The notes beneath the pieces are model-generated. The model ran no database searches, was not told the origin of the DNA, and worked only from the letters and a program-made list of their open reading frames with translations. Of a stretch of 64,000 nucleotides of DNA, positions 16,178-61,126 are shown piece after piece. Within the stretch, counting starts at the first letter, position 1, and every line of letters starts with the position of its first letter. The stretch spans positions 2,703,001-2,767,000 of the forward strand of contig NZ_AP025667.1 of NCBI RefSeq assembly GCF_022846655.1. The letters run 5' to 3'. The position numbers were made by a program, and so were the translations under genes. The DNA comes from Streptomyces seoulensis (GTDB taxonomy: Bacteria; Actinomycetota; Actinomycetes; Streptomycetales; Streptomycetaceae).

Positions 16178-16221
16178 GAAGGTTCCGTTCATGGTGCGAG
16201 GGGGTGAGCGGGAGGGGCGAC

Positions 16222-26623: not shown

Positions 26624-29600
26624 GTGACAGCAGGCCCGGCCCCCGACAGGGCACCGATGGACGGCGACACCCTCACGGCATCCTTCGCGCAGCGCCGGCT
26701 GTGGTTCCTGGAGCAGTTGGCCGGCGGTTCCTCCGGGTCGATGCTTCCGCTGGTTCTGAGGCTGCGCGGGGACCTGGACGTGGACCGGCTGGAGCGGTCG
26801 CTCGCCGGGATCGTGGCCCGGCACGAGGTGCTGCGTACCCGGTTCACCGCCGTGGACGGCGAGCCCGTGCCCCGGGTGGACGCCCCCACGGGCCTCCTCC
26901 TGCGGCGGACCGAGGCGGACAGCGCGGAGGACCTCTTCGCCTCGCACCTGGGCCGTCCGGTGGACCTGTCCGCCGAGCACCCGGTCCGGGCCACGCTCGC
27001 GCGCCTTGCGCCGGACGAGCACCTGCTGCTGATCGAGATCCACCACATCGCGGTGGACGGCTGGTCGTGGGGCGTGCTGCTGGACGAACTCGCCGCCGGA
27101 TACCGTGGCGAGACCGTCGCCCCGCCCGCCACGCGCTACGCCGACCTCGCCCGCGCCCAGGCCGAGCGCCTGTCCGGTGCGCGGCTGGAGCGGCTGCTCG
27201 GGCACTGGCGCGACCGCCTGTCCGGGCTCGAACCGCTCGACCTGCCCACCGACCGGCCGCGCCCCGCCGTCTGGGACGGCTCGGGCGGCGTCGTCCGCTT
27301 CGACCTGCCCGCCGACCTCGTCGCGGCCGTGGACACCGTGGCCCGCTCCCGCCGCGCCACCCGGTACATGCTGCTGCTCACGGCCTACCAGGCGCTCCTG
27401 GGGCACTGGTCGGGCCGCACGGACGTCGCGGTGTGCAGCACGCTGGCCGACCGTGCCCAGCGCGGTGCCTCCGCCCTCATCGGGCCGCTCGTCAATACGG
27501 TCGTCCTGCGCTCGGACCTGTCCGGCAGGCCGGGTTTCGGTGCCCTGCTCGACCGGGTGCGGGGCCGCGTCCTGACCGACCTCTCGCACGCCGAGGTGCC
27601 CTTCGACCACGTGGTCGGCGCGGTCGGCGGCAGGCGGGACCTGTCCCGGCATCCGCTGGCGCAGGCGTCGTTCACCCTGCTCAACAGCCCGATCCGGCCG
27701 GTCCGGATGCCCGGCCTCGAGGTGGAGCTGGTGGAGCCCCCGCTCACCGGGACCCCGCTGGACGTCTTCCTCGACCTGACCCTGCGTGCCGACGGCAGCG
27801 TCGCCGCCATCCTGCAGTACGCCACCGCCCTCTACGACGCCGCCACCATGCGGGCCTTCGCCCGCGCCTACGTGCTGCTGCTGCGTGCGGTCCTGGCCGA
27901 CACCGAGACGCCCGTGCAGGACCTGTGCCGCGCCCTGCCCGCGGGAACGGGCGCACCCGCCGCCCCGCGCGCCGAGTGGCACCACGCCCCCGACCGGCCC
28001 ACCGCCGCGCCGCCCCCGGTCGCGTTCCGCGGGAGCCCCGACGCCACCGCACTGATCTGCGGTGACTTGGCGGCCACCTACGCCGAGCTGGACGCCATGA
28101 CCGGGGGACTCGCCGCCGCGCTGCGGGCCGCCGGGGTCGGCCCCGGCAGCCCGGTGGGCGTGCTGCTGCGCCGTGGCCTGTGGTCGGCCGCGGCGATCGA
28201 GGGCGTGTGGCGGGCAGGCGGCGCCTACGTCCCCCTCGACCCCGAACTCCCGCTGGAACGGCTGCGGTTCATGGCCGAAGAGGCCCAGCTCGCCTGTGTC
28301 GTGGCCGACCCGGCGACCGCGCGGACGGCCGAGGGGCTCGCACCGGTCGTCCTCGACATCGAACGGGTGGCCCCGGCCGCGGACGGCCCCCGGCACCGTC
28401 CGGACCCGCGCGAGCTGGCCCACGTCATCTTCACCTCCGGTTCCACCGGCCGGCCCAAGGCGGTCGGAGTCGAACACGCGGCCCTCGCCTCGCACGTCGC
28501 CGCCGCCCGCGAGCGCCTCGGCATCACCGCGGCCGACCGGGTGCTGGCCTTCGCCTCGTTCGCCTTCGACGCCTCGCTCGACCAACTGCTGCCCGCCCTC
28601 ACCTGCGGTGCCACCGTGGTCATGCGCCCGGACGAACCGTGGCTGCCCACCCAGGTCCCCGAGGTCGTCCAGCGGCACGCCCTGACCGTGGTCAACGTGC
28701 CCCCGACCTACTGGGCCGAACTCACCCTCTCGCTGGACCGGCGGCTGGCCGCCGCCCTCACCTCCCTACGGCTGCTGGTCCTGGGCGGCGAGGCGGTCCC
28801 CGCCGACACCCTCGCCACCTGGCGTGCCGCTGTCCCGTGGGCCCGTGTGTGCAACGCCTACGGGCCCACCGAGACCACCGTCACCGCGACGACCCACGAC
28901 GTCCGCGACGCCCCCTCCGGCAGCGTGCCCATCGGCCGCCCCCTCGGCGACCGCCGGGTGTACGTGGTCGACGCCGACGACACCCCCGTCCCGGTGGGCG
29001 TCGGCGGCGAACTCCTCGTCGGCGGGACCGAGGTGGCCCGGGGCTACCTGCGCCGCCCCGCCCTGACGGCCGAGCGCTTCGTGCCCGACCCGTACGGGCC
29101 GCCCGGCAGCCGCCTGTACCGCACCGGCGACTTCGTGCGCTGGCAGCCCGGAGGCGAGCTGGAGTTCCTCGGCCGCCGCGACGACCAGGTCAAGATCCGC
29201 GGCTTCCGTATCGAACTCGGCGAGGTGGAGGCGGTGTTGCGGGCCTGCCCGCTGGTCGCCGCGGCCGCCGCCCGCCCCGACCGCGCCACCGGACGCAGCC
29301 TGATCGGCTACGTCGTACCGGCCGCACCCGGCGACGGGACCGCCGACGACCCCGGCGCGGCCGGCCACGACCCTGCCGAGGCCACCACCCCGCCGGCCGT
29401 CGACCGTGCCGCGCTGCGCGCCTGGTGCGCCCGCTTCCTGCCGCACTACGCCGTGCCCTCCGAGTTCGTCCTCCTGGACGCCCTGCCCGTGGCCGTGTCG
29501 GGCAAGCTCGACCCGTCCGCGCTGCCCGACCCGGACCAGGTCCGCTCCGGAGCCGACGGCGCCTACGCGGCTCCCCGCGACGAGACCGAGCGGATCGTCG

Positions 29601-32600
29601 CCGAGGTGTGGGCCGACGTCCTGGGCGTGGAGCGCGTCGGCATCGACGACAGCTTCTTCGACCTCGGCGGCCACTCCCTGCTCGCCACCATGGCCGTCTC
29701 CCGGATCGCCCAGCGTCTCGACCGCGAGATCGAACTGCGCACCGTCTTCGAGAACCCCACCGTGCGCGGCTTCGCCCCGCGCGTCGCCGCCGCTCGCGCG
29801 TCCGGCGCCACCGAGGTGACCCCCGTGGACCGGGACCGCCCGCTGCCGCTGTCCTTCGCCCAGGAACGCCTGTGGTTCCTGGACCGCACCTCCGACCGCG
29901 GCGACTCCTACCTGCTCTGGTACTGCTGGCGGGTGAGCGGCGGCCTGGACCGCACCGCCTGGCAGCAGGCCCTGGACGACCTGGTCGAACGGCACGAGGT
30001 GCTGCGCACGGCCCTCACGGAGTCCGACGGACGTCCCGTGCAGCAGGTCCGCGATCCCCGACCGGTGCCCCTGCACTGGGAGCGGGTGCCCGGCGCGCCG
30101 GACGAGCCGGCCCGCCTGGAGGCCGTACGGCGGCAGGCCGTCGCCCTGGCCACGCGCCGGTTCGACCTCGACCGGCCACCGCTGCTGCGGGCCGGGGTCT
30201 GGGAACTGGCGGGCGACGACCATGTCGTGGTCCTCGCCCTGCACCACGCCGTCACCGACGGCTGGTCCAAGGGCGTCCTGCTCGACGAGCTCGCCCGGCA
30301 CTACTGGGCCCGGCTGTCGGGGGAGCGGGCCCAGCTCCCACCGCTGCCCGTGCAGTACGGGGACTTCGCCGTCTGGCAGCGCGACCGTGCCGACAGCGGG
30401 GCCCTGGAGCCCCAACTCTCCTACTGGCAGCAGACCCTGGCCGGGGCACCCGCCCTGGAGCTGCCCACCGACCGGCCGCGGCCGTCGGTGTTCACCGGGC
30501 GGGGCGGCGCCGTCGAGGTGGACCTGCCCGAGGACCTCGCCCACCGCGTGGACGCCTACGCCCGCGCACACGGCGCGACCCGCTTCATGGTGCTGCTGGC
30601 CGCCGCCCAGGCCGTCCTCGCCCGCTGGTCCGGACAGACCGACGTGTCCGTCGGCACACCCGTCGCCGGCCGCGACCGGCTCGAACTGGAGCCCCTGGTC
30701 GGCTTCTTCGTGAACACCGTCGTCCTGCGCACCGACCTCTCGGGGCGCCCCGGTTTCGCCGCCCTCGTCGAGCGGGTGCGGGACGTGGTCCTCGGCGCCT
30801 TCGACCACCAGGAGGTGCCCTTCGAGCGCGTGGTGGAACGGCTGCGCCCCGAACGCGACCTGTCCCGCAACCCGTTGTTCCAGGTGATGGTGGACGTCCA
30901 GGACGCCACCACGGACGGCTCCGGACTGCCCGGCCTGGACGCCGCCGGATTCACGCTGCCGTGGGGGTCGGCGAAGTTCGACCTGACCGCGACCTTCCTG
31001 GTCCGGCCCGGCCGGTTCGCCCTCAACGTCGAGTACGCCGCCGACCTCTTCGACCCGGCCACCGCCACCCGGTTCGCCCGGCACGTCGGCCGGGTGCTGG
31101 AGGCCGCCCTCGCCGCCCCCGGCACACCGGTGGACGAGGTGCCGCTGCTCTCCGGAAGCGAACGGGAGCACCTGGTGGCGGCCGCGGGACGGGACGCCGC
31201 GCCCGCGCCGAGGTTCCGGGTCGCGGGAGACCCCGACGCCAGGGCCGTGGTGTGCGAGGGGCACTCCCTCGACTACGCCCGGCTGGACGCCCTGACCGGC
31301 GGCCTGGCCGCAGAACTGGCCGCCGCCGGGGTGGTCCCCGGCAGCGCGGTGGGCGTGTGCGTGGGCCGGGGGGTCTGGTCGGTGGCCGCGATGCTCGCCG
31401 TGTGGCGCGCGGGCGGCGTCTACGTACCGCTCGACGCCCAACTCCCCGCCGAAAGGCTGGAGTACATGCTGCGCGAGGCGGGCGTGGCACACGTCGTGAC
31501 CGACGCGGGCACCCGCGGCAGGACCGCCGGTCTCGGCGTGACGGCGGTCGGCGTGGAGCACGTGCGGCCGACCCCCGACGGCCCCCGCCACACACCCGCA
31601 CCCGGCGACCTCGCCTACGTCATCTTCACCTCGGGCTCCACCGGCCGGCCCAAGGCCGTGGGCGTCGAGCACCACGCCCTGGACGCCCATGTGGCCGCCG
31701 CCCGGCAGGAGTTCGCGCTCACCTCCGAGGACCGGGTGCTGACCTTCGCCTCCACCTCGTTCGACGCCTCCCTGGAGCAGATGCTGCCCGCGCTGAGCAC
31801 CGGGGCGACGGTGATCGTCCGCCCGGACGAGATCTGGGCCCCCGAGGAACTCGTCGCTCGCGTCGCCGCCGAGCGGGTGACCGTCATGGAGCTCACCCCG
31901 TCCTACTGGGCCGAGGTCGTCGCCCGCCTGGACGCCCTCGCGCCCCGGCTGGCCTCGCTGCGGCTGCTGGTGACCGGGGGAGAGGCGCTGCCCGCCGACC
32001 CCCTGGCGAGCTGGTTCGCCCGGCTGCCCGGCGTCCCCGTGGTCAACACCTACGGCCCGACCGAGGCGGTCGTCTCCGCCACCGCCCACCGCGTCGAGCG
32101 GGTGCCGGAGGGCCGGGTGCCCATCGGACGCGCCCTGGGCAGCAGGCGGGCCCACGTGGTGGACACCCTGGGCGAGCCGGTGCCGGACGGGGTCCCCGGC
32201 GAACTCCTGCTCGGCGGACCCGAGCTGGCACGCGGTTACCTGGGAAGGCCCGCCCTGACGGCCGAGCGCTTCGTGCCCGATCCGTTCGGCGCCCCCGGCG
32301 CCCGGCTCTACCGGACCGGTGACGTCGTACGGCGGCTGCCCTCGGGGGAGCTGGAGTTCCTCGGCCGCAACGACGACCAGGTCAAGATCCGCGGGTTCCG
32401 GGTCGAGCCGGGGGAGGCCGAGGCGGTGCTGCGCCGTCACCCGGGCGTGCGGGCCGCGGCCGTCGTCGTCCGCGCCCTGCACGGCGAACCGGCCCTGGTC
32501 GGCTACGCCGCGGGCGGGGGACTGGCCGAGGAGTCCCTGCAGACGCACTGCCGGGCCCACCTGCCGCACTACCTCGTCCCCTCGGCCTTCGTCCTCCTCG

Positions 32601-32974
32601 ACACCCTGCCGCTGACCGTGCAGGGCAAACTGGACACCGCGGCCCTGCCCGACCCGGTCGCACCCGCACCCCAGGACTTCGTCGCGCCGAGCACTCCGGC
32701 CCAGACCGTCGTCGCGCAGATCTGGTGCGAGGTGCTCGACCTGCCCCGCGTCGGCGTCCACGACGACTTCTTCGTCCTCGGCGGGCACTCCCTGCGCGCG
32801 GTGTCCGTCGTCTCCCGCCTGCGGACCGCCTTCGACTGCCCGCTCCAGGTCCGCGACCTCTTCGAACACCCCACCGTGGAACGGCTCGCCGCCGAGGTGG
32901 AGCGCCGGCTGCTGGAGCTGATCTCGCAGATGAGCGACGACGAGATCGACCTCTCCCTCACGGCCGACCACTGA
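26624..32974 (+). CDS. Non-ribosomal peptide synthetase, modules 1-2 (C-A-T-C-A-T)
   Basis: 2116 residues. C1 (HHIAVDG at ~140), A1 (TSGSTGRPK at ~604), T1 (GGHSL, Ser ~1018), C2 (HHAVTDG at ~1207), A2 (TSGSTGRPK at ~1669), T2 (GGHSL, Ser ~2056). All condensation and phosphopantetheine residues are intact. Reading the A pockets by eye against GrsA gives DADNVGAVTK for A1 and DAEEVGTVSK for A2; neither matches a code I know with certainty, though the acidic residues in A2 hint at a basic side chain. Because the protein begins with a C domain, the first unit may be acylated or receive a residue loaded elsewhere, for example on the stand-alone PCP. The GTG start has GGAGG six bases upstream. Confidence 0.93.
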
Positions 32975-33076: not shown

Positions 33077-40350
<7,274 letters not shown>

Positions 40351-40354
<4 letters not shown>

Positions 40355-41666: not shown

Positions 41667-42929
41667 ATGGCCACCACCCTCACCGGCGCCGGACCGCGGC
41701 TGTGGGCGCCCGCCCGGCACCGCCCCTTCCGACTCCTCTGGCTCGGACAGTCGTTGTCCCTGCTCGGCGACGGCTTCAGCGTCGTCGCGTTCTCCTGGAT
41801 CACCCTCGGCCTGACCGGCTCCACCCTCACCCTCGGCTACGTCCTCGCCTTCCAGGCGGTGCCCCGCGCCCTGCTGACCCTGGTGGGCGGCACCCTCAGC
41901 GACTCCTGGTCCACGCGCACCCTGATGATCGCCTCCAGCTGGACGCGGGCCGGACTCATGGCCGCGGTGGGACTGGTCGGTCTCACCGGACATCTGACGG
42001 TGTGGATGCTCTGCGCGGCCGCCGCCGCCTTCGGCGCCGTGGACGCCTTCTTCCAGCCCGCCCGCATGTCGATCCTGCCCTCGGTGGTGGACGAGGACCT
42101 GCTCACCCCGGCCAACGCCCTGCTCGGCGCGGGCACCCGGACCGCCGCGGTCCTCGGCCCGGCCGTCGGCGGCATGGTCATCGCCGTCACCGAGGCACCG
42201 GTCGCCTTCCTCGTCGACGCCGTCTGCTTCGTCCTGTGCGGCCTGTGCGTGCTCGGCATCCGCACCCGGCCCCGCGCACCACGGGCGGCCGCCCCGGCCG
42301 GCGCCAGGCCCGCCGCCGAAGCCGCCCCCTCGCTCGGCGCCCGCATCCGCGAAGGCGTGGCCTTCACCTGGCGCGACCCCCGGCTGCGCACCGTCGTCGC
42401 GCTCGACACCGCCGTCAACTTCTGTTACGCCGGGCCCTTCACCGTCGGCTTCGCCACCCTCGCCGACCAGGTGCTGCGCGGCGGCTCGGCCACCCTGGGC
42501 GTGCTCAACGGCTCCCTGGCCGGCGGCGCGATGCTCGGCACCCTGGCCGGCGGCGCGCTCGGCGGGCGGCCCCGGGTGGGGCTGCTGGTGGCCGCTCTCG
42601 CCGGGTGGCTCGGCGCGGGGATGGCCGTCCTCGGGCTGGTCCACAGCACCCCGGCGGTGGTGGCTACGGTCCTCGCGATGGGCTTCGCCATCGGCTTCCA
42701 GGGCGTGTTCGGGCTGAGCTGGATCCAGCGCAACATCCCCTCGGACGTGCTCAGCCGGGTCGTCTCCGTGGACATGGTCCTCGGCTACGCCGCCGCGCCG
42801 CTCTCACTCGTCGTCTGCGGCGCCCTCGCCCGCACCAGCACCTTCGCGCTGTTCGCCACGGTGGCCGCCGTCCTCGCCGTGACCGCGGCGGCGGTGCTCG
42901 CCTCCCGCGCGGTGCGGGAGATGCGCTGA
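41667..42929 (+). CDS. MFS exporter
   Basis: 420 residues with about twelve hydrophobic segments and a central loop (~200-225) rich in Ala, Pro and Arg. N-terminal pattern FRLLWLGQSLSLLGDGFSVVAFSW and the GGTLSDSWSTRT loop (a motif A variant after TM2) match the drug-resistance/enterobactin-exporter-like MFS group. Probably exports the cluster product and may give self-protection. Last gene of the rightward NRPS operon; it ends 16 bp from the convergent LAL regulator. Confidence 0.88.
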   Translation: MATTLTGAGPRLWAPARHRPFRLLWLGQSLSLLGDGFSVVAFSWITLGLTGSTLTLGYVLAFQAVPRALLTLVGGTLSDSWSTRTLMIASSWTRAGLMAAVGLVGLTGHLTVWMLCAAAAAFGAVDAFFQPARMSILPSVVDEDLLTPANALLGAGTRTAAVLGPAVGGMVIAVTEAPVAFLVDAVCFVLCGLCVLGIRTRPRAPRAAAPAGARPAAEAAPSLGARIREGVAFTWRDPRLRTVVALDTAVNFCYAGPFTVGFATLADQVLRGGSATLGVLNGSLAGGAMLGTLAGGALGGRPRVGLLVAALAGWLGAGMAVLGLVHSTPAVVATVLAMGFAIGFQGVFGLSWIQRNIPSDVLSRVVSVDMVLGYAAAPLSLVVCGALARTSTFALFATVAAVLAVTAAAVLASRAVREMR

Positions 42930-45997: not shown

Positions 45998-46210
45998 TCA
46001 TCTGGGGGCGGACACCGAGGTGTCGATCGTGCTGAGCGTGATCACGAAGCCGCTGGTCAGCACCATGCCCGCCAGCACCCGGGCCCGCGCGCAGGCACGG
46101 TTGCGGCCCTTGAGCGTGATGCCGCCCGCCGCGTCCTGCTCGACGGCCGTGGTGTCGGCGGCGACATCGGCGGTGGCGGTCATGTCGGCGGCGGCGAAGT
46201 TCTGGTCCAT
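45998..46210 (-). CDS. Lanthipeptide-like precursor peptide (Ser/Thr-rich, Cys-poor)
   Basis: 70 residues with AAGGGGA upstream of the ATG. The first 30 residues are acidic (MDQNFAAADMTATADVAADT...) and end in a double glycine (DAAGG, 26-30), like a class II leader. The remaining 40 residues begin ITLKGRNRACARARV and end LTSGFVITLSTIDTSVSAPR, with eight Ser/Thr in the last 19 positions but only one Cys (position 40). It lies 106 bp after lanM on the same strand, the usual neighbourhood of a LanM substrate. No similar peptide is known to me; assignment as precursor rests on size, GG motif and location. It could instead be a small membrane-active peptide. Confidence 0.6.
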   Translation of the reverse strand: MDQNFAAADMTATADVAADTTAVEQDAAGGITLKGRNRACARARVLAGMVLTSGFVITLSTIDTSVSAPR

Positions 46211-49484: not shown

Positions 49485-50012
49485 GGGGAACCAGCCCCCA
49501 TATTCTCCGCCGACCCCCGCCCCGCCACCCGAGAGTGAGTACGCGACAGGAGGAAACCGCAGCTCAGCGATGGTGGGTGAGCAGTACCCAGGTAGGGGAG
49601 GCCCCACCCCCGTGGATGACGCCGGCGCGGCTTTCCCACCACTCCGCCCCCACCCGCACGGCCCGCGACCCCCATGCTCCGGCCCCGTGCGTGTCGCCGA
49701 CCCCTATTCCGGCACGCCCGCCCCCGGTCCCGTCCCCGGAGAATCCGTCGCGCCCTCCCCATCCCCGCCCGGACTCCCGCACCGACGGGCCCGGTTCGGC
49801 ACTCTTCGTGCCACCCCACGCCCCCGCACGGCCCCCACGGGGCGACCGCACAGGGCCTCCGCCCTGCCCCCGTACCCCCGGACCGGGGGCGGGCCGGGAA
49901 AGGTGGGGACCGATTACGGATGCTCCCGGCCGGGCCGCGGCGGCAAGGTCCTGTCCAGTACCCGGCACCGCCCGCAGTACGGCAGGGCGGACGACCTTCC
50001 AAGGAGCAGCAG
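49485..50012. other. Long C-rich divergent intergenic region
   Basis: 528 bp between lanM (leftward) and the first small luxR gene (rightward), with no supported gene. From about 49600 to 49900 the plus strand is strikingly C-rich, with many CCCC and CCGCCCCC runs. TATGGGG-type elements sit beside lanM (CCCACATGGGG at 49478, and CCCCCATATTC just after). A TACCCAGGTA palindrome-like element occurs at 49587. Ribosome site AAGGAG for luxR is at 50001-50006. Presumably holds both promoters and regulator sites. Confidence 0.5.
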
Positions 50013-52225: not shown

Positions 52226-53008
52226 CTACGGCGTGTGCAGTGCCACCGCCGCCGCGTAACCCGCCGGGACGAGGACGTCCCGCAGGGTCCATCCCGGCGC
52301 GGGAGGGGTGGGCACCGGGCCGGTGCCCACGTAGTCCAGCGCCGGATCGCGGACCAGCCCGGTGCCCAGCCCCTTCAGGTACGCCTCCTTGCGCACCCAC
52401 GTCCGGGTGAAGGCCGCCGACCGCTCGTGCGGGGGCAGCAGCGTGAGCTCCCGCGCCTCCGTCATGTGCAGCGCCGACTGCGCCCCGAGCACCGCGCGGG
52501 CCGTCGCCAGGCCCTCCACGTCCACGCCGACCGGGGCCGGCGCGAGCGCCACCATCACCAGGTCGCCGCTGTGCGACAGGGAGAAGTGCACCCCGGACGT
52601 GCGCAGCGCGGGCCGCCCGTGCGGACCGCCACAGCCCGCGCACGGTTCGCGCACCAGAGGCAGCGCCTCGGCCGGGACGCCCAGCAGGACGCTGAGCACA
52701 CTGCGCAGCGCCGCGTGCGCGACGACGTAGGCGTCCCGGTCCCGCGTGTGCCTGAACGCCCTGGCCCGCGCCAGCTCCTCCGCGTCCAGGAGCTCCTGCG
52801 CCCGGCGCAGCGCCTCCCCGTCGGGTGTGCCGACCCGCGCCAGGTACAGCTCCAGGGGCCCCTTCAGCGGGCGGGGTCCCAAGGTGTGCGCGGGGCTCCG
52901 CAGGCCGTCGGGGTCCAGTACGGCGGGGCACAGGCGGTGCGGGAGCCGGGGGCCCGGCGGGGCGTGGGCCGTCCGGGTCAGGAGCGGACCCGGTCCGGGC
53001 TCAGACAT
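52226..53008 (-). CDS. Sfp-type 4'-phosphopantetheinyl transferase
   Basis: 260 residues. The metal/CoA motifs are present: VHFSLSHSGD, VGVDVE (~172-177) and WVRKEAYLKGLGTGL (~213-227). It moves phosphopantetheine from CoA onto the serine of carrier proteins and so should activate the four NRPS T domains and the stand-alone PCP. Its start overlaps the mbtH stop by 8 bp, so the two are translated together. The CxxC-like EPCAGCGGPHGRP segment is common in actinobacterial members. Confidence 0.92.
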   Translation of the reverse strand: MSEPGPGPLLTRTAHAPPGPRLPHRLCPAVLDPDGLRSPAHTLGPRPLKGPLELYLARVGTPDGEALRRAQELLDAEELARARAFRHTRDRDAYVVAHAALRSVLSVLLGVPAEALPLVREPCAGCGGPHGRPALRTSGVHFSLSHSGDLVMVALAPAPVGVDVEGLATARAVLGAQSALHMTEARELTLLPPHERSAAFTRTWVRKEAYLKGLGTGLVRDPALDYVGTGPVPTPPAPGWTLRDVLVPAGYAAAVALHTP

Positions 53009-53252
53009 CAGCCCCGGCCAGCCGGCGGCGCAGGCTGAGCGGGCGCATGTCCGTCCAGATCACGCCGATGTGGTCCAGGCACTCCTGCCGGCTGCCCCGC
53101 AGACCCTCGGGGTGCCAGCCCGCCGGCATCTCCCGGTCGGCCCGCCAGATGGAGTACTGCTCCTCGTCGTTGCGCACCACCAGGTACAGGTCCTCAGGTC
53201 CGGGACCGGCCTCCGTGCCGTCCGTCCCGGTCACCAGCTTGTCGTGCGTCAC
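53001..53252 (-). CDS. mbtH: MbtH-family protein
   Basis: 83 residues. It shows the family pattern LYLVVRNDEEQYSIWRADREMPAGW then SRQECLDHIGVIWTDMRPLSL, with both Trp residues that bracket the A-domain alanine. MbtH proteins bind and stabilise or activate NRPS adenylation domains. The GTG at 53252 has GGGAGG six bases upstream, a near-perfect ribosome site. The N-terminal 22 residues, including the VTGTDG stretch, are longer than in many relatives. Confidence 0.92.
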   Translation of the reverse strand: MTHDKLVTGTDGTEAGPGPEDLYLVVRNDEEQYSIWRADREMPAGWHPEGLRGSRQECLDHIGVIWTDMRPLSLRRRLAGADV

Positions 53253-53523: not shown

Positions 53524-55872
53524 ATGTCGGACGAGCACGCACCTGTCCTGCTGCCGGGCGGAGGCTGGCGGCTGTGGGAGCAGTTCGCGCTCCGCGGCCC
53601 CGGTTTTCCCGCCGACGGCGTGCTGGCGCTCGCCCCGCCCCAACTGGGCGAGGCGGCCGACAAGTTCGGCCCCGAAGCCGGGCTGTCCGGCCCCGAGTGG
53701 CAGGGTTTCACCGAGGACTTCTCCGAGGCCGCCGTGGGCACCGCCCGCCACCTCCAGGAGATCGCCGCCCAGCCCCGCTTCCAGGCCGCCCTCGCCTGGC
53801 AGAACCCGGCCGTCCTGCGCACCGGCATCGCGCCGTTCCTGCGGTGGACGCCGAGTGCGGACAGTCGCAGCAGCATGCCTCGTCAGCGTGAGGAGCTGGT
53901 CGCGCACTACTGGCAGCGGTTCTGCGTGAAGAACGACACGATCGGCTTCTTCGGTCCCGTCGGCTGGGGCCGCTGGGACCCGGACACGCCCGACGTGGTC
54001 GCCCTCGAACCCGGGCACGGCTTCCTCGCCGCGTCGGAGGTCTACTTCTCCGCCTGGGCCGTCGACGCCCTGGCGAAGGTACTGGCCGAGGACCCGGCCC
54101 TGATGCGCTGGATCCCCCCACGCCGGGTGTCCTTCGTGCGGTGCGCCGACGGCGAGGTACGGGTTCCGGGGCGGCCGGCGCAGCCGATCGACGCCGGCGG
54201 GCAGGCCGTGCTGGAGCTGTGCGACGGCACCCGGCACCTGGACGCGATCGCCGGAGAACTGGGCACCGGCCCCGACGACGTGGCCCGGACCGTGGGTGAA
54301 CTGGCCGCCCGGCGCTGGGTGTCGTGGCGTCTGGACGTGCCGGCCGCCACCCACCCCGACCGGGCCCTGCGCGACATCCTGGAGCGCGTGCCCGACGAGG
54401 CCGCCCGCGAGCGTGCGCTGGAGAAGCTGGCCGTACTGGAACGCGGTCGTGCCGCCGTGAGCGCGGCCGGCACCGACGCCGCCGCGCTGACCTCCGCGAT
54501 CGGCGCCCTGGAGGCGGACTTCGCCGCGCTGACCGACAGCGAGGCCCAGCGCGCCAAGGGCGAGCGCACCGCACCCTGCCGCGGCTTGGTGTACTCCGAC
54601 GCCCGCCGCGCCGCGACCGCCACCGCGGGCGCCGGACTGCTCGCCCACCTCGAACCGCTGGACCTGTGCCTGACCGCCGCCCGCTGGATGACGAACCGGT
54701 TCGCCGAAGCGATCCGCGCCCGGCTGCGCACCGTCCACGAACGGCTGGCCGCCGGTGGCGCACCGGTGGACCTCGCGAGCCTGTGGCTCCACACCCTGCC
54801 CTCCCCTCACCCGGAGGCGGCCGCCCTGATCGACGCCGTGCAGGCGGAGCTGCGGGCCAAGTGGGCCAAGGTCCTCGATCTGCCGCCGGGTGCGCGCCGG
54901 GTCCGGCTGTCCACGGCCGAGCTGGCGGCGCGGGTGCGCGAGGAGTTCGAGGAGCCCGGCGAGGGCTGGTCGCTGGCCCGCTACATCAGCCCCGACATCC
55001 TGGTCGTCGCGGAGGACGACGACGCGCTCGCCCGGGGAGACGTGGAACTGGTCCTGGGGGAGATGCACTGCGCGCTGAACACCATGGGCGCCTCGCTCTT
55101 CGTCCACCAGCACCCCGACCGGGACGAGCTGATCGCCGAGACCACCCGCGACTTCCCCGGCCCGCGCCTGCTCCCGATGCTGCCGAAGGAGCTGCCGCTG
55201 AAGTGGTCCGCGCGCAGCCGGCCCTCCCTGGACCGGCCCGAGGACCACTACGTGGCCTTGGTCGACCAGACCGGCGACCCGCACCGCCCGCGCACCGTGG
55301 CGAGCGCGGACGTCACCGTGGAGGAGCGCGACGGCCGGCTCCTCGCCGTCCTGCCCGACGGCACGGCCTACGACGTCCTCGACGCCTACGCCAACACCCT
55401 CACCCAGCGCGTCATGGACCGCTTCACCCTGCGCCCGGAGGGCGAGCACACCCCCCGCATTACCGTGGACCGCGTGATCGTGGCCCGCGAGACCTGGCAA
55501 CTCCCCGTCGCGGAAGCCGACTTCGCCGACGAGAAGGGGGAGGCCGCCCGCTTCGTCCGGGCCCGGCACTGGCAGCGGCGCAACGACCTGCCCCGGTACG
55601 TCTTCGTCGTCTCCCCGACCGAACCCCGCCCGTTCTACGTGGACTTCGACAGCCCCGTGTACGTCACCATCCTCGCCAAGGCGGCCCGGCGGCTCGCCCG
55701 CAAGGACCCCGGAGCGCGGCTGAAGATCAGCGAGATGCTGCCGACCCCGGAACAGGCCTGGCTCACCGACGACGAGGGGCGGCGCTACACCTCCGAACTC
55801 CGCTTCGTGGCCGTCGACCGGACCGTCACCGGTGCGGACGGCGCCAACGCCCGCGGCACGGGGGAGGCGTGA
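53524..55872 (+). CDS. LanB-like protein 1 (lantibiotic dehydratase N-terminal type, no elimination domain)
   Basis: 782 residues. It matches the Lant_dehydr_N fold: WRLWEQFALRGPGFPADGV at the N-terminus, KNDTIGFFGPVGWGRWDP (~136-153) at the position of the LanB R-x-TPFG motif, LVYSDARRAATA and PRYVFVVSPTEPRPFYVDFD near the end. Full LanB proteins are ~1000 residues; this one stops where the C-terminal SpaB_C elimination domain would begin. Elimination-free relatives include the peptide aminoacyl-tRNA ligases (PEARLs), which use charged tRNA to attach residues. The first ~170 bp of the KNDT region are almost identical to LanB-like protein 2. Strong GGAAGGAG ribosome site. Confidence 0.85.
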   Translation: MSDEHAPVLLPGGGWRLWEQFALRGPGFPADGVLALAPPQLGEAADKFGPEAGLSGPEWQGFTEDFSEAAVGTARHLQEIAAQPRFQAALAWQNPAVLRTGIAPFLRWTPSADSRSSMPRQREELVAHYWQRFCVKNDTIGFFGPVGWGRWDPDTPDVVALEPGHGFLAASEVYFSAWAVDALAKVLAEDPALMRWIPPRRVSFVRCADGEVRVPGRPAQPIDAGGQAVLELCDGTRHLDAIAGELGTGPDDVARTVGELAARRWVSWRLDVPAATHPDRALRDILERVPDEAARERALEKLAVLERGRAAVSAAGTDAAALTSAIGALEADFAALTDSEAQRAKGERTAPCRGLVYSDARRAATATAGAGLLAHLEPLDLCLTAARWMTNRFAEAIRARLRTVHERLAAGGAPVDLASLWLHTLPSPHPEAAALIDAVQAELRAKWAKVLDLPPGARRVRLSTAELAARVREEFEEPGEGWSLARYISPDILVVAEDDDALARGDVELVLGEMHCALNTMGASLFVHQHPDRDELIAETTRDFPGPRLLPMLPKELPLKWSARSRPSLDRPEDHYVALVDQTGDPHRPRTVASADVTVEERDGRLLAVLPDGTAYDVLDAYANTLTQRVMDRFTLRPEGEHTPRITVDRVIVARETWQLPVAEADFADEKGEAARFVRARHWQRRNDLPRYVFVVSPTEPRPFYVDFDSPVYVTILAKAARRLARKDPGARLKISEMLPTPEQAWLTDDEGRRYTSELRFVAVDRTVTGADGANARGTGEA
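53824..53992 (+). repeat. Near-identical 169-bp segment, copy 1 (in LanB-like 1)
   Basis: Compared by eye with 59129-59297, 169 aligned bases differ at five positions, all silent third-codon changes. The flanking sequences of the two genes are much less alike. The segment encodes the GIAPFLRWTPSADSRSS to WGRWDPDTP region. It suggests recent gene conversion between the paralogues. Confidence 0.8.
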
Positions 55873-57365
55873 TGCGCACGGTCGCCGACGACATCGCCGC
55901 CCACGCGGAGCGGCACCCGCGCCGGATCGCGCTCACCACCCCCGCCGGTGACGTGACCTACGCCGAACTCGCCGCCCGCGTCGACGAGATGGCCCGCACC
56001 CTGTACACCAGGGGCGCCCGCCCGGAGACGGTCTGCGCCGTCGCCGTCGAGCACGGCGGCGAGGCGGTGGCCGCCATCGCGGCGGTCCTGCGCTGCGGAG
56101 CCGCCTTCGTCGCGCTCGACGTCACGCAGCCGCGCGACCGGCTGGCCGCCTTCGCCCGCAGTGCCGGTGCCACGCTGCTGCTGACCACCTCCTCCCTCGC
56201 GCCCGCCCTCGGCCTGGACCTGCCCGCGGTCCACCTCGACCAGCCGGACACCGGCGCCACCGGCGCCCCGCCGCCCAGCCCGGCCGACCCCCGCGCGCTC
56301 GCCTACGTCAGCCACACCTCCGGCAGCACCGGTGAACCCAGCCCCGTCCTGGTCGAACACCACAGCCTCGACGCCTACCTGCGCGACACCGCCCGAGCCT
56401 TCGGCCTCGACGCCCACACCGTGGCCCTCCAGACGGCACCCCTCGGCTACGACGCCTCCCTGCGCGACACCCTCGTACCCCTGCTGGCCGGAGCACGGCT
56501 GGTCATCGTGGACCGGGCCGCGCTGCTGCGCCCCGAGGCGTTCGTCCGCACCGTCCGGGAGCACCGGATCACCGCGCTGCTCAGCACCACCCCCTCCTTC
56601 CTGGCCCACCTGGCCGCACAGCCCGGCCCCGGTGACCAGCTCGCCGGAGTCTCCCTCGTGGCCTCCAGCGGCGAGTCGCTGCGGCCCTTCCTCGCGGCCG
56701 GCGGCCGACCACTCGTCCAGGGCACCCTGGTCAACCAGTACGGCCCGACCGAGTGCACCATGACGACCACCCGCCACGCGGTGCCGGCCGAGCCGGACGT
56801 GTCCGCCGACCCGGTCGGCACACCCCGCGCGGGAGCCGTGATCCGCGTGCTCGACGCGGACCTCGCCCCCGTCCCCGACGGAGCGGTGGGCGAGGTGTAC
56901 ATCGGCGGCACCGGCCTGGCCCGCGGCTACGGCGGCAGGCCGGCCCGGACGGCCGAGTGCTTCGTCCCCGACCCGTACGGGCCGCCCGGCGCCCGCCTCT
57001 ACCGCACCGGCGACCTCGGCCGACGGGGGCCGGAGGGGCTGCACTACGTCGGCCGTACCGACCGGCAGGTGAAGATCCGCGGCTACCGCGTCGACCCCGC
57101 CGAGGTCGAGGGCGCCCTGCTGTCCCATCCGCACGTCACCGGGGCCGTGGTGACCCCCCGCACCGACGACCGGGGACGCGTCCACCTCGTCGCCCACGTC
57201 ACCGGCGCCCTCGCCGCCACCACCGACGGCGAGCTGCGCCGCCACCTCGCCCGGTCCCTGCCACCGCATCTGATGCCCCGCCGCTTCGAACGCCTCGACA
57301 CCCTGCCCACCACCCGGAGCGGCAAGGCGGACCGGCGTCTGCTGGCCGCCGGGAGCCCGGCATGA
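55872..57365 (+). CDS. Stand-alone adenylation (A) domain
   Basis: 497 residues, a complete ANL adenylation enzyme without C or T domain. A3 reads TSGSTGEPSPV, lacking the usual PKG; A5 is NQYGPTE; A7 LYRTGDLGRR; A8 VGRTDRQVKIRGYRVDPAEVE; A10 TRSGKADRRLL keeps the catalytic Lys. The pocket read by eye, about DARSASQMTK, starts with the alpha-amino-binding Asp, so an amino acid is the expected substrate, but the identity is unclear. It overlaps the LanB-like stop by 1 bp (TGATG) and the next gene by 4 bp. The stand-alone PCP two genes downstream is its likely partner. Confidence 0.9.
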   Translation: MRTVADDIAAHAERHPRRIALTTPAGDVTYAELAARVDEMARTLYTRGARPETVCAVAVEHGGEAVAAIAAVLRCGAAFVALDVTQPRDRLAAFARSAGATLLLTTSSLAPALGLDLPAVHLDQPDTGATGAPPPSPADPRALAYVSHTSGSTGEPSPVLVEHHSLDAYLRDTARAFGLDAHTVALQTAPLGYDASLRDTLVPLLAGARLVIVDRAALLRPEAFVRTVREHRITALLSTTPSFLAHLAAQPGPGDQLAGVSLVASSGESLRPFLAAGGRPLVQGTLVNQYGPTECTMTTTRHAVPAEPDVSADPVGTPRAGAVIRVLDADLAPVPDGAVGEVYIGGTGLARGYGGRPARTAECFVPDPYGPPGARLYRTGDLGRRGPEGLHYVGRTDRQVKIRGYRVDPAEVEGALLSHPHVTGAVVTPRTDDRGRVHLVAHVTGALAATTDGELRRHLARSLPPHLMPRRFERLDTLPTTRSGKADRRLLAAGSPA

Positions 57366-58348
57366 CCACCGCCGGACTGGTCCTCGGCCCCGCCGATCTG
57401 CGCGCCGCCGCCGCCCGCATCGCCTCCCACGTGCTCCGCACCCCCCTGCTGCCCGGACCGCCCACGACGGCCGACGGCACGCGCCTGCTGCTGAAGGCCG
57501 AACACCTCCAGACAGGCGGCTCGTTCAAGACGCGCGGCGCCGCCAACGCCGTCCTGGCCCTGGGCGCCGACCGGGTCGTCACCGGCTCCTCCGGCAACCA
57601 CGGCATCGCCCTGGCCCGGCTCGCCCGCACCCTCGGCATCCGGCTCACCGTGGTGCTGGCGGCGGGCGCCGCCCCGGCGAAGGCCGCGGCCATCCGGGCG
57701 CTGGGAGCCGAGACCGTCGGCGTCGGCGGCGGCGTGGCCGAACGGGAGGAACACGCCCGCGCCCTGGCCCTGGAGACGGACGCCGCGTTCATCCCCTCCT
57801 CCGACCACCCCCTGGTGGTCGCCGGGCAGGGCACGGCAGGCGCCGAGATCCTCGCCGACGCCCCAGAGACCGAGACCGTCTACGTCCCCACCGGCGGCGG
57901 CGGCCTCCTCGCCGGAATCTGCCTCGCCGCCGCGCACCACCCGGTGCGGGTGGTCGGCGTCGAACCCGCCGCCACCCCGCGCTACGCCCGCTCCCTGGCC
58001 GCCGGCCGCCCGGTCCGCCTGCCGCCCAGCACCACCGTGGCGGACGGACTGCGCGGCCAGTACCCCGGAGCCGTCCCCTACCCGATCATCCGCGACCGCG
58101 TCGACGACCTGATCGCCGTCGGCGACGCCGAGATCCTGGCCGCCGCCGCGCTCCTGCGCCGGTACGGCATCGACGCCGAACCGAGCGGAGCCGTCGCCGT
58201 CGCCGGCGCCCTGCGCGCAGGCCGCCGCGAACGTGCCGTGGCGGTCGTCTCGGGCGGCAACACCCCGGCCCGCCTGCGCACCCTGACCTCCACCCGCCCT
58301 GAGCGCCTCGACCGCACCGACGGCCACCTCACCCGCGCCGCCCGGTAG
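57362..58348 (+). CDS. PLP-dependent threonine/serine dehydratase-like enzyme
   Basis: 328 residues, fold type II. The Schiff-base lysine is in GGSFKTRGAANAV, the phosphate-binding loop is PTGGGGLLAG, and SSGNHGIALAR and VVSGGN complete the threonine dehydratase/serine racemase pattern. There is no ACT regulatory domain, so it is the catabolic or racemase-like form rather than feedback-controlled IlvA. Possible products are 2-oxobutyrate from Thr, pyruvate from Ser, or a D-amino acid. ATG overlaps the A-domain stop (ATGA). Its place between the A domain and PCP suggests that it prepares or alters the residue activated by that A domain. Confidence 0.88.
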   Translation: MTTAGLVLGPADLRAAAARIASHVLRTPLLPGPPTTADGTRLLLKAEHLQTGGSFKTRGAANAVLALGADRVVTGSSGNHGIALARLARTLGIRLTVVLAAGAAPAKAAAIRALGAETVGVGGGVAEREEHARALALETDAAFIPSSDHPLVVAGQGTAGAEILADAPETETVYVPTGGGGLLAGICLAAAHHPVRVVGVEPAATPRYARSLAAGRPVRLPPSTTVADGLRGQYPGAVPYPIIRDRVDDLIAVGDAEILAAAALLRRYGIDAEPSGAVAVAGALRAGRRERAVAVVSGGNTPARLRTLTSTRPERLDRTDGHLTRAAR

Positions 58349-58440
58349 TTCACCCGCAGAGCCGACCAGCCCACCCGTACCACCGGACAGTCACCCGCAT
58401 CACCGGACAGCCACCCGGACCGTCGAGCAGCCGGTCCGCA
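58341..58440 (+). repeat. Degenerate 20-bp tandem repeats
   Basis: Immediately after the PLP enzyme stop, about five units with a 20-nt period share the core (A/C)CAG(T/C)CACCCG; the clearest copies are CACCGGACAGTCACCCGCAT (58381) and CACCGGACAGCCACCCGGAC (58401). The array ends ahead of the PCP ribosome site. Function unknown. Confidence 0.6.
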
Positions 58441-58462
58441 CCGTCAAGAAGGAGCACACGCC

Positions 58463-58717
58463 ATGAGCATCGACACCGCCACCGCCACCAGCACCCTCGA
58501 TCTGCTCGTCGGGATCTTCCAGGACGTCCTCGGGCTCACCGACCTCACCGCGGAGACCGACTTCTACGAGGCGGGCGGCGACTCGCTCACCGCCTTCCAG
58601 ATCACCGGCCGCCTCCAGGAGGCGCTGGGCGTGGACGTCCCCGTGTCCCTGGTCTTCGCCTACCCGACGCCGCAGGACCTGGCCGAGGTCGTGGACGCGG
58701 ACTTCGGCACCGCCTGA
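58463..58717 (+). CDS. Stand-alone peptidyl carrier protein
   Basis: 84 residues. The phosphopantetheine site is FYEAGGDSLTAFQI (Ser ~41), within a normal four-helix carrier fold (VGIFQDVLGL at the start, VSLVFAYPTPQDLAEVV at the end). AAGGAG precedes the ATG. It probably holds the residue activated by the stand-alone A domain and offers it to one or both LanB-like proteins or to the first condensation domain of the NRPS. Should be activated by the cluster PPTase. Confidence 0.93.
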   Translation: MSIDTATATSTLDLLVGIFQDVLGLTDLTAETDFYEAGGDSLTAFQITGRLQEALGVDVPVSLVFAYPTPQDLAEVVDADFGTA

Positions 58718-58837
58718 CCCGCCCCGGATGCGGCCGCCGCACCCCGTCCGCGTCGCACGCACCCCGCGCCGTGGTCACCCATGTCGTGTCCTGTCCGGGA
58801 GGAACGTCCACCCGCGCACCGCAAGGAGAGCCGTGCC

Positions 58838-61126
58838 ATGACCGAAGACCTCGTTCCGTCCCTCGGCCGCTGGCGCCTGTGGGAGCAGTTCGCCCTGCGC
58901 GGGCCCGGTTTCCCCGCGGACGGCGTGCTGCGCCTCGCGCCGGCCGGACTGGCGGAAGCCGCCGACAAGTTCGCCGCCGACGACACGCTCGACGGGCCCC
59001 GCTGGACCGACTTCGCCCGCCTCTTCACCGAGGCCGCCGTGGAGAACGCCCGCACCCTCCAGGGCATCGCCCGCACCCCCGCCTTCCGGGAGGCGGTCGC
59101 CTGGCAGAACCGGCCCGTGCTGGCCTCCGGCATCGCGCCGTTCCTGCGGTGGACGCCGAGTGCGGACAGCCGCAGCAGCATGCCCCGCCAGCGTGAGGAG
59201 CTGGTCGCGCACTACTGGCAGCGGTTCTGCGTGAAGAACGACACGATTGGCTTCTTCGGCCCCGTCGGCTGGGGCCGCTGGGACCCGGACACGCCCGGAG
59301 CCGCCGTGGACACCGGGTCGGCACTGATCGCCGAGTCCCACGTCTACTGGGCGAGTTGGGGCATGGACGCCCTGGCGAAGACGCTGGACGCCGACCCGGA
59401 GCTGCGCGAGTGGATCGCGCCGAGGCGCGTGCCCTTCGTCGCCCTCGATGGCGACCGGGTCAGCGTGCCCGGCCGCAGACCGGTGACGGTGTCGGCCGAG
59501 GCCGCCGCCGTCCTCGCCCGCTGCGACGGCGTCCGTCCGGCCCGGCGGATCGCCACCGAACTGCCGGGCACCGACGTCCCCGCCGTCCTGGCGGACCTGA
59601 TCGCCCGCCGCTGGGTGGTGTGGCGGCTGGAGGTCCCCGCCGGCACCCATCCGGACCGAGCGCTGCGCGCCTGGCTCCACACCGTCGGAGCGCCCGGCCC
59701 CCGGCAGCGCGGACTCACCGCGCTGGACCGGCTGGAGGCGGGCCGGGCCGGGGTGGCGGCGGCGCGCAGTGACGACGAACTGGTGGCCGCGATGGCCGAC
59801 TTGGAGCGGACGTTCACCGAGCTGACCGACACCCCCGCCGTACGGGAGAAGTCCGCCTCCACGGCTCCCTGCCGGGCACTGGTGTACTCCGACGCGCGAC
59901 GCGCCGCCACCGCCCGCATCGGACCGGCCGTCCTCGACGCGCTGCGCCCGCTGCGCCCTCTCATGGACAGCGCGGGCTGGCTCACCTCCCGGCTGGCCGA
60001 GACGGTGCTCACCGAGTCCCGGCAGGTCTACGCGCGCCTGGCCGCTGAGGGCCCCGTCGACCTGGCCTCCTTCTGGTTCGCCTGCCTGCCCGTGCTGCAC
60101 GGGCCCGCCCGGACCGCGGCCGCGGACCTCCAGCGGGAGTTCGCCCGGCGCTGGCAGCGCATCCTCGCGGTACCGGCCGGGGCACGCCGGGTCGAGACAG
60201 ACGCGGCGGCCGTCGAGGACGGTGTCCGAAAGGAGTTCGGCACCGCGGGCGGCGGCTGGACGGCCGCACGCTATCTGAGCCCGGACATCATGATCGCGGC
60301 CGACGGCGCGGACGCGGTCGCGCGCGGCGACTTCACCCTCGTCCTCGGCGAACTCCACCTCGCCGCCAACACGCTGGGCGCGTCCCTCTTCACCCACCAG
60401 CACTCCGACCCGGACGAACTGTTCCGTCTCACCGACCGTGACCACCCCGGTCCGCGCCTGCTCCCGCTGATCCCCAAGGAGCACCGCTCCCGCCTCTCGG
60501 CCCGCGTCCGCCAGACCCTCGTACGCCCCGAGGACCACCAGGTCGCCCTGGCCGACTTCACGGCGGACCCCGCCCGGCCCCGCACCGTCCGCAGCGCCGA
60601 CGCCACCGTCGAGGAACGCGACGGCGAACTCGTCGTCCTGCTCCCGGACGCCACGGTCCTCCCGGCGGTCGACGTCTTCTCCCACGTCCTGACTACCCTC
60701 GCGATGGATCTCTTCCGCATCCTCCCCGAGGCGGCCCACTCACCCCGGGTCACCGTGGACCGGCTCGTGATCGCCCGCGAGACCTGGCGCCTCCCGGCCG
60801 CCGGTGCCGGCTTCGCCGACGACAAGGACGAGGCCCGCCGCTTCGTCCGCGCCCGTCACTGGAGAGAGGAACTCGGCCTGCCGCGCTACGTGTTCGTGGT
60901 CTCCCCGACCGAGTCCCGCCCGTTCTACGTGGACTTCGACAGCCCGGTCTACGTCACGATCCTGGCCAAGGCGCTGCGCCGGCTGGCCCGCAAGGACCCC
61001 GAGGCCGAAGTCACGTTCACCGAGATGCTCCCGACGCCTGAACAGACCTGGCTCACCGATGCCGAGGGCCACCGCTACACCTCGGAACTGCGCTTCGTCG
61101 CCTTCGACACGGAGGCGTCCGGCTGA
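58838..61126 (+). CDS. LanB-like protein 2 (lantibiotic dehydratase N-terminal type, no elimination domain)
   Basis: 762 residues, a clear paralogue of LanB-like protein 1 along its whole length (WRLWEQFALRGPGFPADGVL; KNDTIGFFGPVGWGRWDP; LVYSDARRAATA; PRYVFVVSPTESRPFYVDFD; EMLPTPEQTWLTD). It also stops short of a SpaB_C elimination domain. Two copies in one operon suggest two successive additions, or a heteromer. The ATG has AAGGAG upstream; an earlier in-frame ATG at 58781 would add 19 residues without a ribosome site. Last gene before a strong terminator, so it probably ends the cluster. Confidence 0.85.
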   Translation: MTEDLVPSLGRWRLWEQFALRGPGFPADGVLRLAPAGLAEAADKFAADDTLDGPRWTDFARLFTEAAVENARTLQGIARTPAFREAVAWQNRPVLASGIAPFLRWTPSADSRSSMPRQREELVAHYWQRFCVKNDTIGFFGPVGWGRWDPDTPGAAVDTGSALIAESHVYWASWGMDALAKTLDADPELREWIAPRRVPFVALDGDRVSVPGRRPVTVSAEAAAVLARCDGVRPARRIATELPGTDVPAVLADLIARRWVVWRLEVPAGTHPDRALRAWLHTVGAPGPRQRGLTALDRLEAGRAGVAAARSDDELVAAMADLERTFTELTDTPAVREKSASTAPCRALVYSDARRAATARIGPAVLDALRPLRPLMDSAGWLTSRLAETVLTESRQVYARLAAEGPVDLASFWFACLPVLHGPARTAAADLQREFARRWQRILAVPAGARRVETDAAAVEDGVRKEFGTAGGGWTAARYLSPDIMIAADGADAVARGDFTLVLGELHLAANTLGASLFTHQHSDPDELFRLTDRDHPGPRLLPLIPKEHRSRLSARVRQTLVRPEDHQVALADFTADPARPRTVRSADATVEERDGELVVLLPDATVLPAVDVFSHVLTTLAMDLFRILPEAAHSPRVTVDRLVIARETWRLPAAGAGFADDKDEARRFVRARHWREELGLPRYVFVVSPTESRPFYVDFDSPVYVTILAKALRRLARKDPEAEVTFTEMLPTPEQTWLTDAEGHRYTSELRFVAFDTEASG
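59129..59297 (+). repeat. Near-identical 169-bp segment, copy 2 (in LanB-like 2)
   Basis: Partner of 53824-53992; five silent differences over 169 bases by my alignment. See the copy 1 entry. Confidence 0.8.

Follow-up and report, generated by a model that had tools for sequence, protein, structure and literature searches.

A conserved operon of two PEARL-type proteins, a stand-alone adenylation domain and a carrier protein in Streptomyces seoulensis: a possible starter-unit cassette for nonribosomal peptide synthesis

Described relatives and the operon of S. seoulensis

Peptide aminoacyl-tRNA ligases (PEARLs) such as TglB, AmmB2 and BhaB (3-thiaglutamate, ammosamide and B. halodurans, respectively) lengthen a ribosomal scaffold peptide at its C-terminus and require a free carboxylate, and transferases of the L/F family use an amino group as acceptor instead of a carboxylate. 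Here we describe an operon of Streptomyces seoulensis that holds two PEARL-type proteins (LanB1 and LanB2), a stand-alone starter adenylation (A) domain, a pyridoxal phosphate (PLP) enzyme (PALP) and a free-standing peptidyl carrier protein (PCP), next to genes for a nonribosomal peptide synthetase (NRPS). It lies in a stretch of 64,000 nucleotides (NZ_AP025667.1, positions 2,703,001 to 2,767,000; hereafter the window, whose own numbering is used throughout) within a 6.54-Mb single-contig genome. In the threopeptin pathway of Stackebrandtia nassauensis, the lantibiotic-dehydratase-like enzyme SnaE, published in 2024, extends an NRPS product, and Yu and van der Donk reported about two thousand clusters of NRPSs or polyketide synthases (PKSs) with genes annotated as lantibiotic dehydratase, some of them fused to thiolation (T) domains (PMC11212132). 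Threopeptin was the only known product of such clusters found in the open-licence literature. In the livipeptin pathway, a tRNA-using L/F-transferase works with the A-PCP-R protein of a C-minus NRPS (PMC10548850).

The operon resembles the SnaE locus in having a stand-alone lantibiotic-dehydratase-like protein in an NRPS(-PKS) cluster with an MbtH-like protein and no precursor peptide; the chemistry proposed for it below would share with SnaE the formation of an amide at a free carboxylate, against the NRPS direction and in a manner thought to depend on tRNA. For SnaE, a urea-forming condensation (C) domain reverses the chain and so provides the carboxylate, and the published account mentions no A-PCP pair dedicated to it (PMC11212132), whereas the operon is accompanied by no urea-forming motif and includes two paralogous PEARL-like proteins, a PLP enzyme, an A domain with Arg at pocket position 239 (Arg239) and a free PCP. 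With TglB, AmmB2 and BhaB it shares ATP- and tRNA-binding residues, matched by motif, and the lack of an elimination domain, but it holds no scaffold peptide. The livipeptin transferase and PacB of the pacidamycin pathway likewise join aminoacyl-tRNA with NRPS products or carriers, although both come from other enzyme families and PacB is described as adding to the amino group rather than to the carboxylate. Class I LanBs (NisB, MibB) and the split LanB of dmxorosin (PMC11855644) belong to the same PF04738 fold family; unlike them, the cassette has no PF14028 partner and its glutamylation-site signature is replaced. Two candidate relatives were rejected: dmxorosin, for which S. thermolilacinus carries homologues but which is a split class I LanB system (PMC11855644), and manikomycin, for which the passages compared show no such genes (PMC13372681). 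That NRPS clusters can include PEARL-like enzymes has been established before. A first-pass annotation of this DNA had considered the system undescribed, which is too strong given SnaE (PMC11212132) and livipeptin (PMC10548850); for the five-gene cassette and its link to an Arg239 A domain, no description was found in the open-licence literature.

The operon (53524-61126) is encoded on a single strand. It begins with LanB1 (53524..55872, +; 782 amino acids), an elimination-less LanB-like protein of PEARL type (PF04738, 1.1e-50), followed by the starter A domain (55872..57365, +; PF00501/PF13193, with AA-adenyl-dom TIGR01733 above cut-off), the PALP, a PLP enzyme of fold type II from the family of serine/threonine dehydratases and serine racemases (57362..58348, +; PF00291), the PCP (58463..58717, +; 84 amino acids with a GGDSL phosphopantetheine site; PF00550, 7.7e-19) and LanB2 (58838..61126, +; 762 amino acids; PF04738, 3.6e-47). 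The longest open reading frame of LanB2 starts at 58781, but 58838 is the more likely start because its annotated homologue in S. fungicidicus has a length of 2283 bp. All five genes, their order and their span are as given by the first-pass annotation, which also had both LanB-like proteins ending before the elimination domain: Pfam finds PF04738 alone in each, the class I LanB elimination domain PF14028 is neither fused nor encoded nearby, and the sole PF14028 match of the genome lies about 0.7 Mb from the operon. The near-continuous overlaps described there hold as near-contiguity, but gaps of 114 bp and 120 bp flank the PCP on its 5' and 3' sides, respectively. Its statement that no ribosomal scaffold peptide is present stands within the operon, where no ribosomal precursor gene was seen, but a conserved gene for a 70-residue peptide lies about 7 kb off and is considered below.

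A homology scan of species genomes yielded 67 loci from the best 80 matches, and gene order was counted in the 50 that had at least 6 kb beyond LanB1, leaving out 13 with less than 6 kb and four without a LanB1 match. A, PALP, PCP and LanB2 follow in this order on one strand in 46 of the 50 loci, so that the five-gene set for which the first-pass annotation had suggested a neighbourhood search is kept exactly; two more deviate solely by an A match split in two, and the remaining two, both from Amycolatopsis, have LanB1-PALP-LanB2 and encode A and PCP at another place in the cluster. The gene arrangement is not by chance. Clusters of about 60 kb were compared from 18 genomes of several actinobacterial families, picked for diversity from 34. 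The starter A domain, PCP and LanB2 were found in 18/18 clusters as well as in the window (A and PCP of G026 were located by an additional search), and LanB1 and PALP in 16/18, both being absent from Actinomadura and Sphaerisporangium, which have a minimal A-PCP-LanB2 form; among these clusters, LanB1 occurs solely where PALP is present. The mixture of NRPS carrier chemistry with an aminoacyl-tRNA-using family, which the first-pass annotation had pointed out, is thus a conserved pairing, the opposite of homologues that always accompany a ribosomal precursor and never the A/PCP pair. The closest relatives of the LanB genes are from Streptomyces; LanB2, scored alone, had matches at E <=1e-100 in 37 of 392 sampled genomes of the genus, with a best identity of at least 53% in 27 and of 34-42% in 10. 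In S. tardus (L025, about 15300-16660), PCP and LanB2 are separated by an incomplete, inverted duplicate of both, the result of either an assembly error or a local rearrangement.

PEARL-type residues and the Arg239 adenylation domain

The residues with which PEARLs activate ATP and the carboxylate and bind the tRNA 3' end have been assigned from mutagenesis and models (PMC11962472; PMC11212132), and D491, E513, E758-x-R760, Y129 and R132 were matched to those of BhaB and TglB by motif, not by joint alignment. Residues were counted in 58 LanB1 and 53 LanB2 proteins, excluding matches with less than 93% query coverage or more than one stop. D491, E513, H515 and R655 are invariant (58/58 LanB1 and 53/53 LanB2), and E758-x-R760 is present in 58/58 LanB1 and 52/53 LanB2, the exception being a truncated match. 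All PEARL-type residues are also found in 12/12 other NRPS-linked LanB relatives and, except for one E513 change, in six proteins from clusters with tandem PF04738 genes, which by this resemblance appear to be of PEARL type. Two loci with several tandem PF04738-like genes, L124 (Saccharothrix) and L125 (Salinispora), resemble ammosamide- or lymphostin-type PEARL clusters. The comparison set consisted of eight full-length LanBs with PF14028, taken from the upper part of the match list and recognised by a TPFG-type motif. None of them has E513 (0/8), H515 (0/8) or the E-x-R motif (0/8; the second position after E is V, F, S or L), and the D491 column holds Asp in 2/8, in a different context. The Tyr and Arg of a conserved helix that bind the tRNA 3'-CCA, Y129 and R132, are present in 111/111 cassette proteins and also in 8/8 full-length LanBs, and are therefore not PEARL-specific. 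In place of the LanB glutamylation motif R-x-TPFG, which is not present, stands KNDTIGFFGP.

A maximum-likelihood tree of 27 chosen loci and the window, made by a quick method and with long-branch warnings, separates the full LanBs from all other proteins (support 100) and groups all NRPS-linked LanB-like proteins with the tandem PEARL-type genes. LanB1 forms a single clade (support 100), and LanB2 needs two label changes, the Amycolatopsis LanB2 pair being placed beside LanB1 (support 85). The two paralogues are accordingly old and probably retain different jobs. A sequence search of the PDB gave no match for LanB1, and a LanB profile gave chance matches only, with no LanB or PEARL relative. 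Because PEARL-type ATP/carboxylate residues replace the LanB glutamylation signature, amide formation on a carboxylate is to be expected, and LanB1 and LanB2 are very probably amide ligases rather than glutamylating dehydratases; the esterification considered by the first-pass annotation is, on the same evidence, unlikely.

The phosphopantetheine serine of the GGDS motif is kept among the stand-alone PCPs listed, and the C-terminus is variable. The PCP is therefore best regarded as a thioester carrier, and its use as a stand-in for a ribosomal PEARL scaffold, extended at its own C-terminus, was rejected on these grounds. A lysine motif and the loops SSGNH and PSSD, the latter strongly conserved, were found in 57 PALP sequences (window included), and threonine deaminase, serine racemase and aspartate racemase are among the closest solved relatives in the PDB search; we read the PALP as probably acting on the starter amino acid. 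The same search returned the expected relatives of the A domain.

Pocket positions of the A domains were read by alignment to the Thr module of NRPS2. The starter A domain of the window has the code DARSASQMTK, with Arg at position 239. When matches below 50% identity or 80% coverage are excluded, the cassette code is DAR-S-A/V/C-S-Q-M-T-K, with deviants in the two clusters without LanB1 and in one Kutzneria. Arg239 is present in 58/58 starter A domains (57 loci and the window's own, the Amycolatopsis copies included), in 0/85 of the remaining A domains in these clusters and in 0/74 background A domains (one unreadable) from 20 NRPS regions of other genomes, in which there was no LanB match. 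Among 11 of 12 distant LanB-linked loci (G254 was left out), 10 were readable and one, L136, had short A matches only; an Arg239 A domain occurs at six of the 10 (6 of 21 A domains), with the codes DPRHVGAQVK, EVRHLALLAK, DVRHLALLAK, DPRNFGFQAK, DPRGFGVQVK and DPRNFGFQVK. The difference between 6/21 and 0/74 has a Fisher p of 6e-5 with relatedness ignored. Arg239 suggests an amino diacid substrate, since the code DPRHLALLAK has been reported for alpha-aminoadipic acid (PMC12283262).

The best support for this association with diacids is a plasmid-borne gene row of Streptomyces sp. NBC_01216 (L206, NZ_CP108679.1 91745-98029), which encodes, in order, a cobalamin-dependent protein, a methylaspartate mutase, a LanB-like protein, an NTF2-like protein, an acyl carrier protein, an Arg239 A domain and an ATP-grasp protein. 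The mutase-like proteins match the Pfam E chain (3e-81) and a B12-binding domain, with both subunits below NCBIfam cut-offs, and they are likely to be a source of 3-methylaspartate, an amino diacid. The row offers a compact alternative system for carrier-bound PEARL chemistry.

A possible starter-unit cassette and its alternatives

The features of NRPS initiation are present at this locus, namely an A domain, a PCP with the GGDS serine and an NRPS that starts with a C domain and has no loading module. The latter, upstream of the cassette, has four modules split over two proteins, the first of which is NRPS1 (26700..32974, +; C-A-T-C-A-T, with two C, two A and two T domains; the start is approximate, and the longest open reading frame runs from 25241). 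Seven clusters whose modules have different codes (G019, G021, G022, G024, G025, G028 and G031) encode, upstream of LanB1, a C domain that shares 48-54% identity with C1 of NRPS1. Such conservation would be expected if this domain receives an unchanging starter, and C1 of NRPS1 is likely to be the one that takes over a PCP-borne starter. The C-domain motifs of the window are IHHIAVDG (C1), LHHAVTDG (C2), MHHIVSDG (C3) and DCHVVLDG (C4). The urea-forming motif EHHXXHDG is present in none of these four domains, so that a SnaE-type source of a free carboxylate is missing here. An amino diacid bound to the PCP would supply one directly, its other carboxylate being held as a thioester.

We consider it evenly balanced whether the operon serves the adjoining NRPS as a starter-unit cassette, in which a diacid on the PCP is extended by the PEARL-like enzymes. 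From the sequences we infer, for substrate, acceptor carboxylate, order of steps, tRNA, PALP reaction and product alike, the following scheme. The A domain would load an amino diacid onto the PCP, and LanB2, as a PEARL-like ligase, would phosphorylate the free side-chain carboxylate of the bound residue with ATP and ligate it with the amino group that an aminoacyl-tRNA offers; once the tRNA is hydrolysed off, the starter would be longer by an amide-bound residue and would again have a free carboxylate, to which LanB1 would add a second residue likewise. The PALP may make or reconfigure the acidic starter amino acid, by racemisation or elimination. The first C domain of NRPS1 would then take the modified starter off the PCP, and the NRPS would extend it in the normal direction, so that a single carrier-bound residue would be the origin of peptide growth in both directions. 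One addition would fit the minimal A-PCP-LanB2 clusters, and two would fit the full cassette. More tentatively, and with somewhat less than even confidence, we propose a general form of bidirectional carrier-tethered synthesis: the LanB pair would add two tRNA-borne residues sequentially to the diacid side chain, the PLP enzyme would set its configuration or oxidation state, the NRPS would extend the thioester end, and the pairing of an Arg239 A domain with a neighbouring PEARL-like enzyme would give such pathways a recognisable sequence rule in several lineages of NRPS clusters.

Several observations weigh against a diacid-loading cassette. The A domain and PCP of Amycolatopsis follow an NRPS on the opposite strand rather than standing beside the LanB genes, the PCP is by sequence an ordinary carrier, and five of the 18 clusters (G023, G026, G029, G033 and G034) have no close relative of C1 (best identity 36-46%). 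Of the 10 other LanB-linked loci, four lack an Arg239 A domain within the sequence covered, and the six positive ones include three closely related loci (L130-L132, with DPR[NG]F codes), which makes the independent Arg239 events fewer. Arg239 is a pointer and not a proof, because it occurs in the aminoadipic acid code but also in DPRHVSLLAK of Asn-activating domains, and the published Asp and Glu codes, DLTKVGHVGK and DAQDLGVVDK, have no Arg239 (PMC12283262); the window code matches none of the published diacid codes compared. SnaE, too, may act on a free rather than a tethered molecule (PMC11212132).

This last point bears on the main rival explanation, which we regard as rather doubtful, that the PEARL-like enzymes extend the released peptide and the A domain and PCP supply merely an ordinary starter: SnaE adds Thr to an unactivated carboxylate, so that such enzymes could act on free compounds (PMC11212132), and the terminal thioesterase of NRPS2 could release an acid. 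It would leave unexplained why A, PCP and LanB2 are linked in 18/18 clusters, as well as the two minimal clusters, the association with Arg239 and the constancy of the cassette beside different NRPSs. A-PCP pairs serve the carrier-bound modification and release of amino acids in other pathways, and it is conceivable, if improbable, that A, PCP and PALP make an unusual free amino acid in this way and that the PEARL-like enzymes tailor a different substrate. The PALP does come from an amino-acid-converting family, but the operon has no dedicated thioesterase, and NRPS1, without a loading module, has at its start a C domain for which a donor is required.

Membership of the PALP in the Ser/Thr dehydratase family, the free amino group that a carrier-bound residue offers to PLP and the joint absence of LanB1 and PALP from two clusters would all suit LanB-type chemistry, in which glutamyl-tRNA esterifies Ser or Thr on the PCP and the PLP enzyme, instead of an elimination domain, eliminates glutamate to give a dehydroamino acyl carrier. 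We hold this to be quite improbable: the PEARL signature stands in place of the LanB glutamylation signature, Arg239 is ill-suited to Ser or Thr, and the PALP is missing where LanB2 occurs alone. Equally little probability, or slightly less, attaches to a ribosomal scaffold outside the operon, the 70-residue peptide (45998-46210, −) encoded beside a LanM-like synthetase gene (46317-49607, −; TIGR03897, 632 bits). The last 42 residues of this peptide, GGITLKGRNRACARARVLAGMVLTSGxVITLSTxDTSVSAPx, are near-invariant; among the 25 LanM-matching loci, 19 were found to encode it (four of the other six end at or near the LanM gene), and LanM-like matches of at least 59% identity are confined to genomes with two LanB matches (6/6; 121 genomes sampled). 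Relatives at 43-46% identity occur also in genomes without two LanB matches. Against such a scaffold, no LanM is encoded in the 60 kb covered of seven cassette-bearing clusters (the sequence of an eighth, G027, stops too soon to judge), Actinokineospora and Salinispora carry at that place an unrelated peptide with Thr-Thr-Cys-Cys-Pro (TTCCP) near its C-terminus, and the C-terminal residues, the site of PEARL action, are variable. The 70-residue peptide possibly gives a lanthipeptide-like product made beside the nonribosomal peptide.

The surrounding cluster and its meaning

Divergent from LanB1 lie the genes for an MbtH-like protein (53001..53252, −; PF03621 on 53001-53240, with the start taken from an annotated 252-bp homologue) and a 4'-phosphopantetheinyl transferase (52226..53008, −; PF01648, PF22624). 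NRPS2 (33077..40354, +) has, by domain search, the structure C-A-T-C-A-T-TE, ending in a thioesterase, and code alignment gives its first A domain (A3) the code DFWNVGMVHK, which we take to be a typical Thr code. It is followed by a cytochrome P450 (40351..41583, +) and an exporter of the major facilitator superfamily (41667..42929, +), both of which have the same position in S. fungicidicus, where plasmid p1 (NZ_CP023408.1) carries the identical order from the NRPS end through LanB2. Further neighbours are two LuxR-type regulators, a large ATPase/LuxR-type regulator and the LanM-like gene. The cyclase half of the latter lacks, by eye, the usual cysteine zinc ligands (SWSSGLAG, SLGHGTLG), and its kinase/lyase motifs, also by eye, are presumably intact. 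The A codes of NRPS1, DADNVGAVTK and DAEEVGTVSK, may stand for basic residues.

Another cluster type with the same cassette includes the genes SbnA and SbnB for diaminopropionate and the diaminobutyrate transaminase gene EctB (L082 6350-8850 and 18188-19480; L046 9060-9977 (Crossiella)), and an ornithine-carbamoyltransferase-like gene, below NCBIfam cut-offs, just 5' of LanB1. Across 19 clusters, genes related to these were met again in 6 to 10. Their presence in another cluster type indicates that the peptides differ between clusters.

The cassette represents a conserved, compact and testable sub-family of the PEARL-like NRPS clusters. If the link between Arg239 and PEARL-like enzymes holds, it would explain where the free carboxylate comes from without a urea-forming domain, and it would make the A domain and carrier partner of a PEARL-like enzyme predictable. 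It would also define a family of peptides in which a constant, tRNA-derived starter is joined to a variable remainder made by the NRPS.

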